NCBI RefSeq assembly: GCF_017695955.1
Contig: NZ_JAAORO010000002.1
Location: forward strand, 1 to 64,000
Reading direction: 5' to 3'
Origin: Prochlorococcus marinus XMU1419
Lineage (GTDB): Bacteria; Cyanobacteriota; Cyanobacteriia; PCC-6307; Cyanobiaceae
Length of the DNA stretch: 64,000 bases
Shown one piece after another: positions 32,826 to 64,000 of the stretch. The stretch's first letter is position 1, and the number at the start of each line of letters is the position of its first letter. The notes beneath the pieces were generated by a model. The model saw nothing but the letters and a program-made list of their open reading frames with translations. It ran no database searches and was not told the origin of the DNA. Both the position numbers and the translations under genes were made by a program.

Positions 32826-33008
32826 AAGTCACTGGATCTTTGGTTAAGTTCTTCTTTATGTGCTCTGATCTGACTCTCTTTCGACATGAGGAGACTGTCG
32901 TGATGCGGTAGTAAACCGATCTTGTAATCGGAAACGAAAGCCCACTTTGAATCCTCTTCTGGCATTTCCAGGTCGATGCAGCAGAGAACTGACGGGGATC
33001 CGGTGTTA
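32826..33008 (+). ncRNA. ssaA: 6S RNA
   Basis: Regulatory RNA that binds housekeeping RNA polymerase. Position directly downstream of purK matches cyanobacterial 6S RNA genes (Yfr7/ssaA in Prochlorococcus). The ends form the long closing stem: CACTGGATC (32830-32838) pairs with GATCCGGTG (32997-33005), and inside it GTTAAGTTCTTC pairs imperfectly with GAGAACTGAC. The middle is largely single-stranded with an internal hairpin, as required for the polymerase-binding bubble. The stretch is GC-richer than its surroundings and has no reading frame. Exact ends are estimates. Confidence 0.88.
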
Positions 33009-33058
33009 CCTACTAGAATGCTTGCTATAACAAGCTTTTAGTAGGTATTTTATTTTTC
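33008..33058 (+). terminator. Terminator of the 6S RNA gene
   Basis: ACCTACTA (33008-33015) with TAGTAGGT (33039-33046), inner stem GCTTG/CAAGC (33020-33024, 33031-33035), followed by a T-rich tail. It may serve the 6S precursor. Confidence 0.85.
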
Positions 33059-33116
33059 ATGATTAGTGGTGAAGGACCAAAATGCAGGAACTTATTAGCA
33101 ATCGGTAACAACAGTA

Positions 33117-33365
33117 ATGGAAGAGTTTACTTTGATAAATAAGCAAAGAAATCGAATAAAAGTATTCAAACCATTTGAGGATATTTCTAAACCATCTCCA
33201 AGTATTAATGCAATGGAGATTAGTTATGGGTGTATTTATAAAAGATCTAGTAAACCAGTTATGAAGGGTTCAAGAGTAGAAACTATTGAAGATGCAAGAA
33301 AAGAATATAAGCAGTTATTGGAAGAAGGTTGGAGGAAGACAAGTATATTTAAAAGTTATTTTTGA
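33117..33365 (+). CDS. Hypothetical protein, 82 residues
   Basis: ATG 33117. Soluble and basic. The C-terminal half (IEDARKEYKQLLEEGWRKT) recalls the A-x(3)-W/Y-x-x-L-x(3)-GW ending of the two DUF1651 proteins nearby, so it may be a divergent relative; this is a weak pattern match. No domain recognised. Confidence 0.6.
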   Translation: MEEFTLINKQRNRIKVFKPFEDISKPSPSINAMEISYGCIYKRSSKPVMKGSRVETIEDARKEYKQLLEEGWRKTSIFKSYF

Positions 33366-33395
33366 TGAGTATAAATAATTTGTTTGCCAAGAAAC

Positions 33396-33451
33396 TTGAC
33401 GATCCATTTCCAATACATTTATACTAATAGTACATATGTATTATTTATTAA
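33396..33451 (+). promoter_or_regulatory. Promoter and palindrome of DUF1651 gene 1
   Basis: A sigma70-type pair TTGACG (33396-33401) and TATACT (33420-33425), 18 bp apart, is followed by an imperfect 20-bp palindrome AATAGTACAT/ATGTATTATT (33426-33445) over the expected transcription start. The same arrangement precedes the second DUF1651 gene at 35858-35906, so it is conserved and probably functional. The palindrome could be an operator. Confidence 0.65.
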
Positions 33452-33750
33452 TGACTTTAGGAGGAGCTAATGTTTGGACTAATTTTTCTTACGGTTATCG
33501 TAATGAGTCACCAAGTGGTTGGTTGCTTAGCCCAGATCGCAGCAGATTAATTTTATTTACAAGGAATAAAAAATCTCCAAGAAATAGTATGAGAATCTTT
33601 ACTCATACATATTATGCAAATGATCTTGGTGAGCCAATGGCAATTAAATCATCAACTCAAATGTATTTGGATAATGCTTGGGATAAATGGCATGACCTTC
33701 AATTGGAAGGTTGGACTTTTGAAGAACTTGAATTACCTGAATCAGTATGA
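33451..33750 (+). CDS. DUF1651-family protein, copy 1
   Basis: 99 residues from ATG 33451. An upstream ATG at 33436 would add five residues but falls almost at the predicted transcript start and is not shared by copy 2. The family pattern is visible: NVWTNF, GWLLSPDRSRLILF, YYANDLGEP, and a C-terminal A-W-x-W-x-x-L-x-x-x-GW. DUF1651 is a picocyanobacterial family of unknown function. TGA overlaps the next ATG (ATGA). Copy 2 is at 35910-36200. Confidence 0.82.
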   Translation: MTLGGANVWTNFSYGYRNESPSGWLLSPDRSRLILFTRNKKSPRNSMRIFTHTYYANDLGEPMAIKSSTQMYLDNAWDKWHDLQLEGWTFEELELPESV

Positions 33751-33887
33751 CTAACTTAAATCCAATCAAAAAAAAACTATCAAAAGTTGATAGAAAGATA
33801 TCTGTACAAGACCCATCAAAATTATTAGCAGAATTTTTTAATGGTGTTGTCATTGAACTTGATGAAGAATACAAATATGACACATAA
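33747..33887 (+). CDS. Hypothetical protein, 46 residues, coupled to DUF1651 copy 1
   Basis: ATG 33747 overlaps the DUF1651 TGA as ATGA. It begins MTNLNP, nearly the same as the protein after DUF1651 copy 2 (MINLNP), then diverges. A basic first half and acidic end (IELDEEYKYDT). No domain recognised. The next gene starts inside it. Confidence 0.6.
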   Translation: MTNLNPIKKKLSKVDRKISVQDPSKLLAEFFNGVVIELDEEYKYDT

Positions 33888-34029
33888 AGAATTGATAGAT
33901 CAAGTTTCTGCAAATTTATTTAAACAAAGCGGAAAGTTAGAAAGCAGAAGATCTTGGTTGGCAATGAGAAATTATCTCGAGCAATTAGATAGCGAACAAC
34001 TTAAATCTATGCTTAAGGAACATGAATGA
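33877..34029 (+). CDS. Hypothetical helical protein, 50 residues
   Basis: ATG 33877, overlapping the previous gene by 11 bases. A soluble, charged, probably all-helical sequence (ELIDQVSANLFKQ, MRNYLEQLDSEQLKSMLKEH). A longer reading from 33841 has no support. It is the last member of the three-gene DUF1651 copy 1 run. Confidence 0.6.
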   Translation: MTHKELIDQVSANLFKQSGKLESRRSWLAMRNYLEQLDSEQLKSMLKEHE

Positions 34030-34054
34030 TTTAAAAACTTTATTTATGAATTAT

Positions 34055-34168
34055 TTATTTGGTTTTTATTTTTTTTTTAATTCTTAGAAAACCGTATGTT
34101 GCAAAGCCAATCAAAAACATGTCCAAGTAAATATGCCATGTAGGGAAAATCTGGTGTACTAATTCCAC
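34055..34168 (-). CDS. Small membrane peptide, 37 residues, coupled to the ligase-domain gene
   Basis: GTG 34168 overlaps the TAG of the ligase-like gene by one base (TAGTG). It has an aromatic N terminus (VHQIFPTWHIYLD), one hydrophobic segment (MFLIGFATYGFL) and a lysine-rich tail. Being placed exactly at the stop of the preceding gene argues for translational coupling. Family not recognised. Confidence 0.5.
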   Translation of the reverse strand: MELVHQIFPTWHIYLDMFLIGFATYGFLRIKKKIKTK

Positions 34169-34917
34169 TAACTTTTTATTGCAACTTGCCAATAAGGATA
34201 ATCTAAATTTGATTTTTCTCTAATTAATTGTAATTTTCTAGAATTTATTTTTACTACTATTCCATCTGTTGGATATTTTCTAAAGAGCTTCCCTTCTAGC
34301 CATTGTTTTCTAAATACTTGAACTTGGCTCGTAAAGTTACATGAAATATCCTGAGGGATCGTAAAGCCAAGTTTGGAAAGACTCTTTTTGGACTCATATT
34401 GGTTAAGTTTTGAATTAAGTATTTGAAATGCGCAGAAGCTAAGACCCTCAAAGAATCCTTCTTTAGCTCTGAGAAATCCAGAAGCAATTCTCTGGGAGAT
34501 ATTTGGACTTTTGTTGGGTGAGAATAACTCGCCTCTAACTTGAAGAATTCCTTTTAAAGCAAGATTATCTGGAATATCTTGGATTTTAATAATTTTACTA
34601 GTAACATCAGTCCCCTTTCTTGAAATTGCTTTCTCAAAGGTTCCATCCCTATATTGCAAAGCAACAGCACAACCATCAATTTTAGGTTCAATTAATAATC
34701 TGGTATCTTCTAATAATCCTTTCAAAAATTCATCTATTGAATCCTTTTCTAATGAAGGTAAAACAAGTTTATTTTTCTTTTTAAAGTAATCGCAATTAGG
34801 ATTTGTTCTTAATAAATTCTTTTCAAGTTGGTCAAACTGCTTATCAGATATTAAAGCATTACCATCTCTATAATTATCGTCATACCACTCAATTCGCTCT
34901 TCTAAATAAGTCTTCAT
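34168..34917 (-). CDS. Stand-alone NAD+-DNA-ligase-like adenylation domain
   Basis: 249 residues, against roughly 650-700 for LigA. A helical Ia-like start (LEERIEWYDDNYRDGNALIS) leads into the nucleotidyltransferase core: EPKIDGCAVAL (KxDG lysine motif, near residue 77), RGELF, GFTIP, and YPTDGIVVKIN followed by WQVAIK. The OB fold, zinc finger, helix-hairpin-helix and BRCT regions are absent, yet all core motifs are intact. LigA domains Ia+Ib can self-adenylate but do not seal nicks well, so the role here is uncertain. It is tightly coupled to a 42-residue gene upstream and a 37-residue gene downstream. Confidence 0.83.
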   Translation of the reverse strand: MKTYLEERIEWYDDNYRDGNALISDKQFDQLEKNLLRTNPNCDYFKKKNKLVLPSLEKDSIDEFLKGLLEDTRLLIEPKIDGCAVALQYRDGTFEKAISRKGTDVTSKIIKIQDIPDNLALKGILQVRGELFSPNKSPNISQRIASGFLRAKEGFFEGLSFCAFQILNSKLNQYESKKSLSKLGFTIPQDISCNFTSQVQVFRKQWLEGKLFRKYPTDGIVVKINSRKLQLIREKSNLDYPYWQVAIKS

Positions 34918-35046
34918 TTAATACTTTGGCTTACGTTTTTGGATAGGTATCAAACTTGGTTTATCTATTATCCATTTTTCTCTGTCTTCATATTTAACAG
35001 TCCCTAAAAGAAATAAAAAAATTTGTTTTTTAGATATGCCAATCAT
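34918..35046 (-). CDS. Small protein, 42 residues, upstream of the ligase-domain gene
   Basis: ATG 35046, TAA 34918-34920 directly abutting the ATG of the ligase-like gene (TAAATG). Begins MIGISKKQIFLFLLGTVKYE and ends basic (IQKRKPKY). No domain recognised. The abutting junction suggests coupled translation. Confidence 0.55.
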   Translation of the reverse strand: MIGISKKQIFLFLLGTVKYEDREKWIIDKPSLIPIQKRKPKY

Positions 35047-35154
35047 ATATATTCTTAAGGACTTATTTATATAGATATTAATAATAAAGTTAATAAAGTA
35101 AGCTTAAAAATACCATTAATATTTGAAAAACTCAGCGAAATTTTTGCAAACTTT

Positions 35155-35412
35155 TTAATTAATACAATTCTTATAACCTTCAATCTCTGCTAGTTCATCA
35201 ATATTTAAACCTGTTTCTTCTAATAAAGTTTCTCCGATATCGTCTTTATTAAATTTAGTTAATGCCCCTTTAGTAGAGTATTTAATGCATTGGTTTTTAT
35301 ATTTTGCTTCTTTTACAAGAGGAGATAAATAAAAGCCAAACAAGATGATAAAAGCCCCATAGGTCAAAACTTTTCTATGGTTTTGCCACCATTCATAAAA
35401 TTTATTGGACAC
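35155..35412 (-). CDS. Single-pass membrane protein, 85 residues
   Basis: ATG 35412. A Trp-rich start (FYEWWQNHRK), one membrane helix near residues 15-33, then a charged domain with two cysteines (C42 and C83). Possibly anchored with the soluble part in one compartment. Family not recognised. Confidence 0.65.
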   Translation of the reverse strand: MSNKFYEWWQNHRKVLTYGAFIILFGFYLSPLVKEAKYKNQCIKYSTKGALTKFNKDDIGETLLEETGLNIDELAEIEGYKNCIN

Positions 35413-35489
35413 GAAAAATAAATAACTAAACTTTATTTTAAATTGCTTGTCAACAAATTACTTTAATAATTGAAGGACTGATTAATTTA

Positions 35490-35717
35490 TTATTTTTCAT
35501 TAACAGATCTAACCCAAGAATAATATCTTGATTTTCTAATCCTTTGCTCTTTCCAGACTAATCTATCTGCAGATTCTAAGGGTGATTCTCCTTTCTCAAT
35601 TTCTGTTGTAATAGATATACCGAAACCTTTTGCTTCAATTTTTGCGATGCCACCTTCTAAAAAAAATAGAAAAGACCAACCTTTATTCCATCCTAAATAA
35701 AAGGGATTTCGATACAT
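35490..35717 (-). CDS. Hypothetical protein, 75 residues
   Basis: ATG 35717. Aromatic and basic (YLGWNKGWSFLFFLEGG at the start, RIRKSRYYSWVRSV near the end), with no clear membrane helix. Family not recognised. Divergent from the second DUF1651 gene. Confidence 0.6.
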   Translation of the reverse strand: MYRNPFYLGWNKGWSFLFFLEGGIAKIEAKGFGISITTEIEKGESPLESADRLVWKEQRIRKSRYYSWVRSVNEK

Positions 35718-35857
35718 TTTATTTTTTTAGAATTATTCTTTAATGATATTTTTCTTTTGAGGGAACTACTTGTATACCCTATTACCAAATAAGAAGTTTA
35801 CTGCTGATTATTTCAGAAAATTAAAGCTCGTATTTAAATAATTACTTGGAGAAATAC

Positions 35858-35909
35858 TTGACGTCGGCAAATAGTACATTTATATTAATAGTACAACTGT
35901 ATTATCCTT
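35858..35909 (+). promoter_or_regulatory. Promoter and palindrome of DUF1651 gene 2
   Basis: TTGACG (35858-35863) and TATATT (35881-35886), 17 bp apart, followed by AATAGTACAA/CTGTATTATC, a degenerate version of the palindrome before copy 1. The sequence from the -10 region to the start codon is clearly homologous between the two loci. Confidence 0.6.
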
Positions 35910-36200
35910 ATGACATCAGGAGTCGCTAATGTTTGGACTAATTTTTATCGTGGCAGCCTTATTGACCCCCCAACTGGCTGGTTGTTTAACCAAAAAAGTG
36001 GTTTGTTAATTTTTTTTGAGAGTTATAAGAGATCTGTATCTGATAACTTAAAAGTATATACTCACCTTTTCTATGCGAATGAATTAGGTGAGCCAGCCCA
36101 ACTTAAAAATTCAAGACTTCTTTCTATTGAGTGTGCTTGTGAAACATGGAATGAATTAATTTCAGGAGGTTGGCAAATTGCTACTAATAAATTCCAGTAA
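35910..36200 (+). CDS. DUF1651-family protein, copy 2
   Basis: 96 residues from ATG 35910. It aligns with copy 1 throughout: MTSGVANVWTNF against MTLGGANVWTNF, then PTGWLFNQKSGLLIFF, FYANELGEP, and a C-terminal A-x-x-W-x-x-L-x-x-x-GW. The spacing and upstream promoter are also conserved, so the two loci are paralogous. Function unknown. The next gene starts three bases after the stop. Confidence 0.82.
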   Translation: MTSGVANVWTNFYRGSLIDPPTGWLFNQKSGLLIFFESYKRSVSDNLKVYTHLFYANELGEPAQLKNSRLLSIECACETWNELISGGWQIATNKFQ

Positions 36201-36202
36201 TA

Positions 36203-36436
36203 ATGATTAATCTAAATCCGTCAAAATGGGAATATCTAAAAGAACCTATACTAAAACGAAAACGTACAAAGATTTGTATTACTTGCAATCACTTTCGCTA
36301 CAACACTACAGAAACTTTTGCTACAGTTTTGATTTGTCCAAGATACGAAAAACTTATACCTCAGGGTGATCATTTACTTAAAGGTTGTGTGTATTGGCAA
36401 GAAAATAGGACTATATTTTCTCCTGAAGCATCTTAA
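36203..36436 (+). CDS. Four-cysteine zinc-ribbon-like protein, 77 residues
   Basis: ATG 36203, two bases after the DUF1651 copy 2 stop. N terminus MINLNP matches the gene after copy 1. The rest has C-x-x-C (ICITCNHF) and later VLICPRYE and LKGCVYW, a spacing able to bind a metal. A basic stretch (LKRKRTK) precedes the first Cys. Nucleic-acid or protein binding is possible; inference. Confidence 0.65.
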   Translation: MINLNPSKWEYLKEPILKRKRTKICITCNHFRYNTTETFATVLICPRYEKLIPQGDHLLKGCVYWQENRTIFSPEAS

Positions 36437-36537
36437 TGATTCTCAGATTAACCTTTTGTTGGTGTAGATATTTAATTATGTAAATAAAGCATTATTTTAT
36501 ACAACTTAGAAAAAAACTTTTAAGTAGTTTGTGAAAT

Positions 36538-60845: not shown

Positions 60846-63332
60846 TTAATCACTATATTTTTTTACAAGTTTTTCTACTCTTTTTTCTATTGTTTCATTA
60901 CTTAAAGTATTTTTAAGTCTTTCAACTAATAAAGGAAAAGCAAAAGGAGTTGGAGTTTTTATCTCATTTAATAGCATTTTTAAATTTTTTAATCTTTCTA
61001 ATGATCTAGATATTCTTTTATTTTCTAATTGATATTCTTTAACTTCTTGATGCGATTGTTTTATCAAAAGATGGCCCTCTTCATATTTAGTAAAGACATC
61101 GTAAAAAAGACTTGAACTTATTTGAAGTTGAGAGGAGGTTTTTGTTTTGGTTGGATTATTTTGATTCACAAGTCCACTTATTTGGGCAATATTTTTAAAT
61201 CTACGTTTTGTTAATTCTGAAAAATTAATTGCATTTTCTAGATCTTCTTCTAATTTTTTGTTATTCAAAAAGTAATCAGCTTCTTTTTTTATTATGGAAA
61301 AATCATAATCTTCTGCGGTAGTTAAGCTGAATCCAAAATCATTGGCAGTAATACTAAATGTAGATTGTTTTAATTTTGCTAATCTCAAAGCCCATAAAAA
61401 TGCAATTCCTTCATTTACAAATTTGCCATCAAGTGTAAAAACAAAAAGATTTGATAAATCCTTGGTTTTATATATTTCTAAGAGGAATTCATCATTCTTT
61501 GGAATATTTGAAAGAACTTTTTGTTTCTTAAATATTGGGCGTAATGAATTGAGTTCAGGATTTAAGCAATCATAATTTTCTAGTTCGTTGCATATATCTA
61601 TTTCTTTTCTCAAACTCTCACAAAGTAGATCAGAAATTGCCATTTGACCTCCGACCCATGCAGGAATTAGAGAACTTTTTTTTGTTGATTTTTTAACGTA
61701 TAAAATCATATCTCTTATTCTTACAAATTGAAGCATTTTGCCGGCAAAGTAAAATGTATCTCCTGGATTTAATTTTGAAGCAAAATTCTCCTCCAAATTG
61801 CCTAAGGATTTACCTTTCATATATTTGACTTTCACAAATTTGTCACTTGTAATTGTCCCAATATTGAACTTATGCATTCTTATTAAAGATTTGTCTTTTA
61901 CAAAATATTTAAAGTTTTCATTATTATTTTGTGATTCTTCTTTAACTATCTTTTTATATTTTGGGTATGCTTTAAGACATTTCCCTCCATATTCTAAAAA
62001 GTCAAGACACCAATTCCAATCTTGATCCTTTAAGTTTCTATAACTCCAACAACTTTTAACTCTTTCTTTCTCAATTTTCGGATCAAAGCCATTTCCGCAT
62101 GCCAAACTTATTAGATGTTGAAGCAAAACATCATAAGATAATTCAGGAAGTCTTATTTTTTCATATATTCCCCTTTTTATAATTCTTCTCATTGAACTAA
62201 TCTCTAATAACTCTAAAGAATTAGTAGGCATAAAAATTATTTTCGATTTTCCACCCGGTCTATGCGCACTTCTCCCTGCTCTTTGAATAAGTCTAGCGAT
62301 ATTTTTTGCACTGCCAATTTGAACTATTTGATCTACAGGTTGAAAGTCAACTCCCAAATCTAAAGAGCTGGTGCAGACTACCCATTTTATTAATCCGTCT
62401 TTAACTCCTTCTTCAACTCTCTCTCTATCTTCTTTATCAAGGGAGCCGTGATGAAGTGCGATTTTGTCTTCCATCTCTGGCAGAAAAAATTTAAGACATT
62501 GGTACCATCTTTCAGATTGATTCCTTGTATTAGTGAATAATAAGGTACTTTTATTTTTATCCAATATTTTTAAAAGTGAAGAATGACTTCTAATCCCTAG
62601 ATGTCCACTCCATGGAAAGGTAGTTTCCTCCTCTGGTAAAACACTTATAATTTCAATCTCTTTTTGAATATTTGTACTTATTATTTTGGGTTTAATAGCG
62701 CTTATACCAACTATTGCTCTTGCCGCTTCTTCGATATTCCCAATAGTTGCAGACATTGCCCAAATTTGTAAATTTTTTATATTGCCTCTTAGCCAACTTA
62801 ATGATAATTCGCACTGGTTTCCTCTTTTACTACCCATCAATTCATGCCATTCGTCAATAATTATTGACGATAAATCCTGAAAAAGATTATTTGATTCTTT
62901 ATTAGAAAGTAAAAGAGATAAAGACTCTGGAGTTGTAATAAGAATATTAGGTGGTTTGGCTAACTGCTTTTTCTTTTCATATGGGGTGGTGTCCCCATTC
63001 CTAATCTGAACAGTGATTTCTTTGTTAAAATGCAAAGCTGCTAACTGTATGGAATTTTTTAAATCCCTACTTAGGGCTTTTAAAGGCGTTATTACCAATA
63101 TTTTTACACTTTTTTGATTTTTGGGATCTTCTATCTGTGATAGAGGCCCCATTAATGCAGCATAAGTTTTTCCGCATCCAGTAGGAACTTGTATTATTCC
63201 ATTCTCTCCATTTAAAAATGCTGACCATGATTCGATCTGGTAGGGTAATGGCTCCCATCCATTTGAGGAGAAAAACTGTTTAATTTTAGAAATTAAATTA
63301 TTTTGCCTACTATTTTGCGAAATATTTTTCAT
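60846..63332 (-). CDS. Ligase-associated DEXH-box helicase (Lhr-type)
   Basis: 828 residues. Motif I IQVPTGCGKTYAAL (near residue 40), motif II DEWH in IIDEWHEL, motif III MSATIG, motif VI QRAGRSAHRPGG, then a winged-helix and Lhr C-terminal region. It belongs to the ligase-associated family TIGR04121, an SF2 3'-5' helicase/translocase of DNA damage response. ATG overlaps the ligase gene end by four bases (ATGA). Confidence 0.92.
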   Translation of the reverse strand: MKNISQNSRQNNLISKIKQFFSSNGWEPLPYQIESWSAFLNGENGIIQVPTGCGKTYAALMGPLSQIEDPKNQKSVKILVITPLKALSRDLKNSIQLAALHFNKEITVQIRNGDTTPYEKKKQLAKPPNILITTPESLSLLLSNKESNNLFQDLSSIIIDEWHELMGSKRGNQCELSLSWLRGNIKNLQIWAMSATIGNIEEAARAIVGISAIKPKIISTNIQKEIEIISVLPEEETTFPWSGHLGIRSHSSLLKILDKNKSTLLFTNTRNQSERWYQCLKFFLPEMEDKIALHHGSLDKEDRERVEEGVKDGLIKWVVCTSSLDLGVDFQPVDQIVQIGSAKNIARLIQRAGRSAHRPGGKSKIIFMPTNSLELLEISSMRRIIKRGIYEKIRLPELSYDVLLQHLISLACGNGFDPKIEKERVKSCWSYRNLKDQDWNWCLDFLEYGGKCLKAYPKYKKIVKEESQNNNENFKYFVKDKSLIRMHKFNIGTITSDKFVKVKYMKGKSLGNLEENFASKLNPGDTFYFAGKMLQFVRIRDMILYVKKSTKKSSLIPAWVGGQMAISDLLCESLRKEIDICNELENYDCLNPELNSLRPIFKKQKVLSNIPKNDEFLLEIYKTKDLSNLFVFTLDGKFVNEGIAFLWALRLAKLKQSTFSITANDFGFSLTTAEDYDFSIIKKEADYFLNNKKLEEDLENAINFSELTKRRFKNIAQISGLVNQNNPTKTKTSSQLQISSSLFYDVFTKYEEGHLLIKQSHQEVKEYQLENKRISRSLERLKNLKMLLNEIKTPTPFAFPLLVERLKNTLSNETIEKRVEKLVKKYSD

Positions 63333-64000
63333 GATATCTTTTTCATAAGTTTATAAGCATTTTCTAGGCTATCTGCATCATTAATTTTTTTATCTTTTCT
63401 CCATTTTGTTATTCTTGGAAATCTTACTGCTATGCCTGACTTGTGACGTTTTGAAATTTGTATTTTCTCAAAAGATATTTCGAATACCATTTCTGGTTTT
63501 AAAGATCGAACAGGACCAAATTTTTCTATTGTATTTTTCCTGATCCATTTATCTAGCTCTTTAATCTCAATATTCGTTAAACCAGAATATGCACTTGCAA
63601 ATTTAACTAATTCTTGGTCTCTCCATAATGCAAAACTATAATCTGTATAAAGACCAGCTCTTATACCGCTGCCGCCTTTAGCGTAAATTAGAACTGCATC
63701 CAGTTGCATAGGATCAACTTTATATTTCCACCAAATACCTTTTTTTCTCCCAGACGCGTATATAGAAGTCTTTTTCTTAATTATTAATCCTTCAGTATTA
63801 TTTTCTCGAGATTTTTCTTTATAAGTTAAAGCATCAGACCAATCTTTAGGATAGATTAAATCACATAATTTGAAAATATCAGAGATATTATTCTCAGTTT
63901 GCTTTTGCCATTTTAAATAATATTTTTCTAAATTAATTCTTCTATTTTCTAATTTAATTTCTCTTATATCTCTTCCATTAATCTCTAAAAGATCATAAGC
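63329..64000 (-). CDS. ATP-dependent DNA ligase, C-terminal part (cut by window edge)
   Basis: The frame is open to the right edge, so the start and the active-site lysine lie outside. Visible from the edge: AYDLLEINGRDIR (motif III), EGLIIKKKTSIYASGRKKG then WWKYK (motifs IV-V), VDPMQLDAVLIYA, and the OB-fold domain with LYTDYSFALW and RFPRITKWRKDK. These match the ligase-associated TIGR04120 type. An ATG at 63709 is internal. With the helicase and PdeM it forms a repair operon. Confidence 0.9.
   Translation of the reverse strand, partial: AYDLLEINGRDIREIKLENRRINLEKYYLKWQKQTENNISDIFKLCDLIYPKDWSDALTYKEKSRENNTEGLIIKKKTSIYASGRKKGIWWKYKVDPMQLDAVLIYAKGGSGIRAGLYTDYSFALWRDQELVKFASAYSGLTNIEIKELDKWIRKNTIEKFGPVRSLKPEMVFEISFEKIQISKRHKSGIAVRFPRITKWRKDKKINDADSLENAYKLMKKIS

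Follow-up and report, generated by a model that had tools for sequence, protein, structure and literature searches.

A 249-residue open reading frame of Prochlorococcus marinus XMU1419 is a real, conserved gene rather than a remnant of the NAD+-dependent ligase LigA, and it belongs to a family of stand-alone adenylation modules carried by mobile elements and viruses. We tentatively propose, at somewhat less than even confidence, that the ORF encodes an NAD+-charged AMP donor that would have come from mobile recombination modules and is now chromosomally fixed. The window analyzed here is a stretch of 64,000 nucleotides, and the features of interest in it and elsewhere in the same genome are as follows.

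34168-34917, minus strand: stand-alone NAD+-ligase-type adenylation module, named type A (domain Ia plus NTase), 249 aa; assigned by PF01653, residue map, selection and comparison of an AlphaFold2 model with PDB entries.
34055-34168, minus strand: 37-aa membrane-type peptide; its GTG begins on the final base of the module stop codon.
34918-35046, minus strand: 42-aa ORF, the C-terminal remnant of a ~68-aa membrane-type gene (frame comparison, nucleotide alignment).
35155-35412, minus strand: 85-aa membrane-type ORF with weak similarity to the downstream peptides of two type C modules.
33117-33365, plus strand: 82-aa DUF1651-like gene (tblastn; PF07864 at 20.5 bits, just below the cut-off of 22).
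C3:267221-267970: type B, the second module copy in the window's genome.
G000:C3:550298-551626 (L192 2299-3627): Pmar-Lig, in the chromosomal slot of ligA.

The type A ORF begins with ATG and ends one residue past motif V. An earlier note on this DNA had described it as an adenylation domain that keeps the KxDG, RGE, TDGIVVKI and WQVAIK motifs of LigA without any of its other parts, and both hmmscan and the sequence confirmed this. PF01653, the NAD+-ligase adenylation domain, was the sole Pfam match above cut-off (70.8 bits against 27), hmmscan of the protein returned no OB, zinc-finger, HhH or BRCT match, and the score against TIGR00575 (LigA) was 73.4 bits, below the curated cut-off of 444 bits. 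The motifs lie at residues 79-82, 128-130, 217-224 and 243-248, respectively. Aligned with LigA from E. coli K-12, type A retains the equivalents of K115, D117, G118, R136, E173, R208, D285, K290 and K314, and its Y16, D25, F28 and D29 align with Y22, D32, Y35 and D36 of domain Ia. Of these E. coli residues, K115, D117, G118, E173, D285, K290 and K314 belong to the NTase motifs and Y22, D32 and D36 to the NMN-binding domain Ia. The two proteins differ at Y35 (F in type A), H23 (a gap), R200 (Q) and R277 (K), and four residues are missing after R136; the changes at R200 and R277 and the four-residue loss may mean that nick binding has been lost.

An AlphaFold2 model of type A (pLDDT 84.5, pTM 0.72, from an alignment of 20 rows, with residues 49-55 poorly modeled) matched the LigA adenylation domain 3baa with a Z score of 22.4 and an rmsd of 2.5 over 199 residues. 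Because 244 residues align to 7k72, LigA with NAD, at an rmsd of 6.4, domain Ia is predicted to be present but differently placed. Type A shares with LigA (PF01653; 3baa, 1ta8, 7k72) its fold, the KxDG, RGE, DGxVxK and WxxAxK motifs and, in domain Ia, Y22, D32 and D36, and differs from it by the residue changes above, by the lack of the four further domains and by falling in a separate clade.

Type A has been maintained by selection. All 93 copies that we extracted have an uninterrupted frame of 249 codons; three of them are the window's own and others are partly repeated, which leaves 82 distinct coding sequences, and as the copies were chosen by an N-terminal pattern, broken starts would be missed. 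So many uninterrupted frames are far more than expected by chance. The named relatives, among the best 80 of 160 confirmed stretches, are Prochlorococcus strains, including MIT 9401, 9107 and 9314, together with a few titled Synechococcaceae. Pooled pN/pS over the 82 distinct sequences was 0.196. K79, G82, RGE, D218, K223 and K248 are invariant among them, D81 is replaced by N in one, D25 by N in one and D29 by E in two. The earlier note had argued against simple decay and called for a selection estimate on the KxDG and RGE residues, and the low ratio together with near-invariant motifs bears it out. It had also named two signs of a pseudogene, a frameshift joining the frame to further LigA domains and loss of the motifs in relatives; neither was found, as the copies examined end at codon 250, the window genome holds no LigA OB fold and relatives keep the motifs.

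Among 60 same-genus (Prochlorococcus) genomes, each at least 95% complete, 48 carry an uninterrupted type A at 75% identity or more and 12 lack it; in G002, G023 and G193 only a copy of ~51% was seen. Because the frame is uninterrupted in 48 of 60 genomes, pN/pS is 0.20, the motifs are near-invariant and the protein falls in a separate clade, we conclude that type A is not a remnant of LigA. By coordinates, type A lies ~21-53 kb from a 548-aa ATP ligase on the same strand in 12 genomes compared, the exception being G015, where the distance is 67 kb and the strand differs. At its far end the window enters a 546-aa ATP-dependent ligase gene (63329-64000, continuing to C2:64969; L036 1111-2751, minus strand; PF04675, PF01068, PF04679), which is distinct from Pmar-Lig, starts past the window end and is directly preceded by a 109-aa ORF. 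At the other end (1-120), the contig opens within AAG-rich sequence, one segment of which (aaaaagaggaa.ttaaaaaaacagtaatta) is repeated after ~90 bases.

The earlier note had placed type A in a three-gene operon, joined at base level to genes on either side. The downstream junction holds: the stop codon and the start of the 37-aa peptide share one base, and this overlap is conserved in relatives. The peptide starts with GTG in the window and with ATG in 81 of the 82 distinct relatives, the frame there being 37 aa long in 77, 39-40 aa in three and truncated in two, and its pN/pS is 0.18 over 57 distinct sequences. Upstream, TAA does directly precede the module's ATG, but the 42-residue ORF is not an intact operon member. 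In 69 of the 80 distinct relatives with enough flanking sequence, the corresponding frame runs open for 66 codons or more (pN/pS 0.56 over 69 sequences); it is broken in the window and 10 others. Of the proposed gene order, therefore, the conserved part is the pair formed by the module and the 37-aa peptide. Similarity of the 85-aa ORF to the type C downstream peptides (phmmer E values of 1.7e-5 and 9e-4 in a five-sequence comparison) is no more than suggestive. The 82-aa DUF1651-like gene has relatives of 83-84% identity near two type C modules (L200 and L206; tblastn). Another 82-aa ORF, at L309 1686-1934, resembles it by eye and lies near the genome's own related integrase. We found no tRNA in the window and no Rfam match at 33000-36500.

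Bacteria are generally held to rely on LigA as their near-universal replicative ligase. A full-length ligA, which the earlier note had suggested looking for elsewhere, was not found in the three contigs of the window genome (99.99% complete), nor was full LigA found in any of 38 same-genus genomes at least 95% complete. In the same comparison, 160 of 162 genomes of other genera passed the LigA cut-off. Four of 101 same-genus genomes drawn at any completeness carry LigA, as do two further ones (G540 and G544). The only other LigA part that a LigA-wide profile detected in the window genome was a match in the HhH range, within a 652-aa frame that is probably UvrC. Each of the 38 LigA-less genomes carries an ATP-ligase frame of 440-456 aa; none was found in four LigA-bearing members (65-77% complete) or in 12 genomes of genus g29, and none appears among the matches listed for 111 other-genus genomes. 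The window genome's copy is Pmar-Lig, a T4-like ATP ligase (957 bits to 6RAU). It lies between a common 139-aa gene and a common ~200-aa gene followed by valS, a slot that it occupies in 15 of 15 LigA-less genomes examined, including MIT 9401, 9107 and 9314. Because ligA occupies the same slot in six LigA-bearing members and one g29 genome, the exchange is a replacement in place, and this position makes Pmar-Lig the likely replicative ligase of these genomes.

Pmar-Lig (6RAU, 6RAR) has an NTase fold related to that of type A (Z 15.1) and is encoded in the same genome; unlike type A, it is a complete three-domain ATP ligase in the slot of ligA. PMC6698739 says that Pmar-Lig accompanies the replicative NAD enzyme, which does not fit these genomes. 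In strain MED4, a transcript called 'ligA' is reported to peak in S phase (PMC2663038). In the open-licence part of the literature we found no statement that LigA is absent from Prochlorococcus.

We placed type A in a tree of 60 sequences, in which 51 stand-alone modules form one clade (support 97/98) apart from LigA, LigB and the T5 ligase; the tree is midpoint-rooted, and LigB and T5 sit on long branches. We named the module types A, B, C, X, D, E, F, H, S and viral. Among the matches listed for 290 Cyanobacteriia genomes, short frames are confined to the window's genus (13 of 13 genomes) and to genera g29 and g22, and the others are long frames of LigA length. Types D, E and F belong to g29, type S to g22, and type X occurs in two LigA-bearing genomes. 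KxDG and RGE are kept in intact types A, C, D, H, S and viral, and R200 is replaced by Q throughout the intact group aligned. Type B has lost D36, D285 and K314 in the window genome, retains all three in G093, and is interrupted by stops in at least G098 and G545. The alignment shows most catalytic residues gone from types E and F, and parts of the family are on this account probably no longer enzymes. In g29, two degenerate copies lie ~4-5 kb apart with long frames of 228 and 200-210 aa; type F (L175, L184, L186, L187) is changed at D117 and E173, and type E (L169, L176, L177) at E173. No family of the PADLOC models for known anti-phage defence was found for four proteins at E<=0.01, and every match to named phages and plasmids was below 60% identity.

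The 251-aa type C modules are often coupled to recombinases. In nine of 11 loci, which were those returned by score and not a random draw, the ORF immediately upstream encodes a recombinase and shares 1-4 bases with the module, an overlap that suggests paired production. Seven of these recombinases are tyrosine recombinases and two are large serine recombinases (L015/L204 and L276, the module itself being broken in L276). The tyrosine assignment comes from weak matches, with only L017 above the Pfam cut-off and L016 and L020 having a PHROG match in place of a Pfam integrase match; six of the seven were aligned, and all six share the R, RH, GH and Y columns. Of the remaining loci, one has only a 116-aa recombinase fragment and one has no recombinase, and none was seen at either type X locus. 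Three recombinases are followed by module fragments. An att site inside the module was considered here and rejected, the breakpoints (~codons 14, 54 and 57) being different, and because they differ we read the fragments as probable decay. In one 18.4-kb contig (L205, G095:C15:1-18416), an integrase-module pair and tRNA-Ser occur twice in opposite orientation, at both ends; these are either real inverted ends or an assembly artefact.

Other types show related surroundings. In G188, type D is flanked by tRNA-Pro and an integrase fragment. At two of four type S loci the module overlaps an HTH-like ORF (weak match), and at two of the four an integrase lies nearby, one of these two also having a DUF3987 gene (Pfam). 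In the one type H locus tested, a weak HTH/excisionase-like match and a VapE-like gene come after the module. A search of viral contigs with the type C profile returned 22. In four of these, all marine, a module of 239-241 aa directly precedes a RusA-like gene and overlaps it by one base, the RusA-like family match having been run on one of the four. A further 17 carry a 258-259-aa module after a gene of ~250-270 aa (two such genes were tested, and both are minor-tail-like), and one encodes full LigA. No viral DNA among the viral contigs is close to the window protein. One module-bearing viral contig also encodes a Mom-family DNA-modification protein (L224 3355-4062, plus strand; PF25680, E 3.8e-38).

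The reverse search, from recombinase to module, gave weaker support for the pairing. Among the 30 best-scoring related recombinases in 101 genomes, found with a profile derived largely from module-coupled ones, six precede an intact module, three a truncated module and 21 none; short matches of 18-29 residues (E ~5e-4) at four of the 21 were discounted. The window genome has a related tyrosine recombinase of its own without a module beside it (L309 4653-5843, minus strand; G000:C3:13652-14842). The module is therefore dispensable to related recombinases. Type A, for its part, has neither a recombinase nor a resolvase adjoining it, and the possibility of a recombinase remnant beside the window copy was rejected, as tblastn gave nothing better than E 0.034. 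Hackl and colleagues reportedly described tycheposons in 2023. The tyrosine recombinases of type C loci, whose genes share their 3' ends with the modules, may belong with the tyrosine integrases of picocyanobacterial islands and tycheposons; the passages of PMC10187409 on these mention no ligase-like partner. The open-licence part of the literature yielded no report of such a module with integrases or RusA.

These data suggest how type A may work. It would be a stand-alone NAD+-dependent nucleotidyltransferase, the Ia plus NTase half of a LigA-type ligase, and a chromosomally fixed member of a family otherwise found in picocyanobacterial integrative elements, together with site-specific recombinases, and in marine viral contigs, together with a RusA-like resolvase. 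Judging from residues and fold, domain Ia would bind the NMN half of NAD+, K79 would take AMP and NMN would leave, so that step 1 of ligation, self-charging from NAD+, is likely. As the gene pairing suggests, the charged module might then transfer its AMP onto a 5'-phosphate where the partner DNA enzyme, which would stand in for the missing OB/HhH grip, holds a strand break or exchange intermediate. The earlier note had suggested an enzyme that adenylates something else than DNA or has a nick-independent role. The neighborhoods of relatives point to DNA strand exchange, and since modules pair with strand-exchange enzymes of three unrelated kinds, our leading guess for the AMP acceptor is a DNA break in the grip of the partner, the main rival being AMP-tagging of a protein. 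We see it as possible, though we lean against the whole being right in every part, that mobile OB-less NAD+-charged nucleotidyltransferases partner site-specific recombinases and a RusA-like resolvase, feeding AMP to the breaks these hold, and that one copy became fixed where a T4-like ATP ligase replaced LigA, leaving the modules as the sole NAD+-ligase-type proteins detected. Against the AMP-donor reading of type A stand the lack of a recombinase beside the window copy, the 12 of 60 near-complete genomes without type A and the loss of catalytic residues in types E and F and in type B of the window genome. Tyrosine and serine recombinases, moreover, need no ligase for their own joining step.

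If AMP instead goes from NAD+ to a protein, for example the recombinase or a host factor, the module would be an NAD+-sensing regulator of recombination and not a DNA-joining helper. Intact step-1 residues with every DNA-gripping domain absent, the R200 to Q change across the intact group and the short overlaps with recombinase genes all favor such a target. RusA, however, leaves nicks that need sealing, so that a DNA role fits at least as well, and we know of no citable precedent for a protein target in this fold; we consider this reading doubtful. It is less probable again that type A is a binding or structural protein, its fold retained for contact with DNA, NAD+ or a partner and catalysis no longer the point. 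Full frames did survive the loss of catalytic residues in types E and F of g29 and in type B of the window genome, but in type A K79, G82, RGE, D218, K223 and K248 are unchanged and D81 is kept in 81 of 82 distinct sequences, and the other intact types also retain KxDG and RGE.

A further alternative makes type A the catalytic half of a split NAD+ ligase whose OB/HhH/BRCT subunit would be very divergent and encoded by a gene of its own. In T5-type phages LigA is divided between two genes (dnlj1/dnlj2), and both their ligase and the heterodimeric PR1 phage ligase (9hu3, 9i5i) have, like type A, a short gene starting with Ia and NTase; the T5 subunit A is among the nearest phage relatives of type A by sequence, and the PR1 enzyme matches the AlphaFold2 model at Z 17. 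The T5 subunit A, however, runs on into an OB fold (PF03120), as does the Akh-2 homologue, and type A has no PF03120. T5 also has a partner gene with Zn, HhH and BRCT parts, whereas the LigA-wide profile revealed no such partner in the window genome, the probable UvrC frame aside, and the tree sets type A apart from T5, albeit on a long T5 branch. We regard a split ligase as very unlikely. We give next to no weight to type A being the decaying leftover of the LigA that its lineage lost. Full LigA was indeed not found in the window genome, but the remnant reading is already contradicted: type A is located elsewhere than the ligA slot, groups apart from LigA, is under purifying selection and has relatives that co-exist with LigA in other genomes.

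A T4-like ATP ligase exactly in the slot of ligA, with LigA not found, provides a clean natural example of replacement. In the stand-alone modules a well-studied enzyme takes on a new arrangement, with the charging residues kept and the DNA grip gone, and the modules are paired with integrases of two unrelated types and a resolvase. The annotation 'NAD-dependent DNA ligase' in these genomes may name only this module. Two questions become testable: whether an NTase domain can work with a borrowed DNA grip, and whether some integrases use an NAD+-dependent helper.
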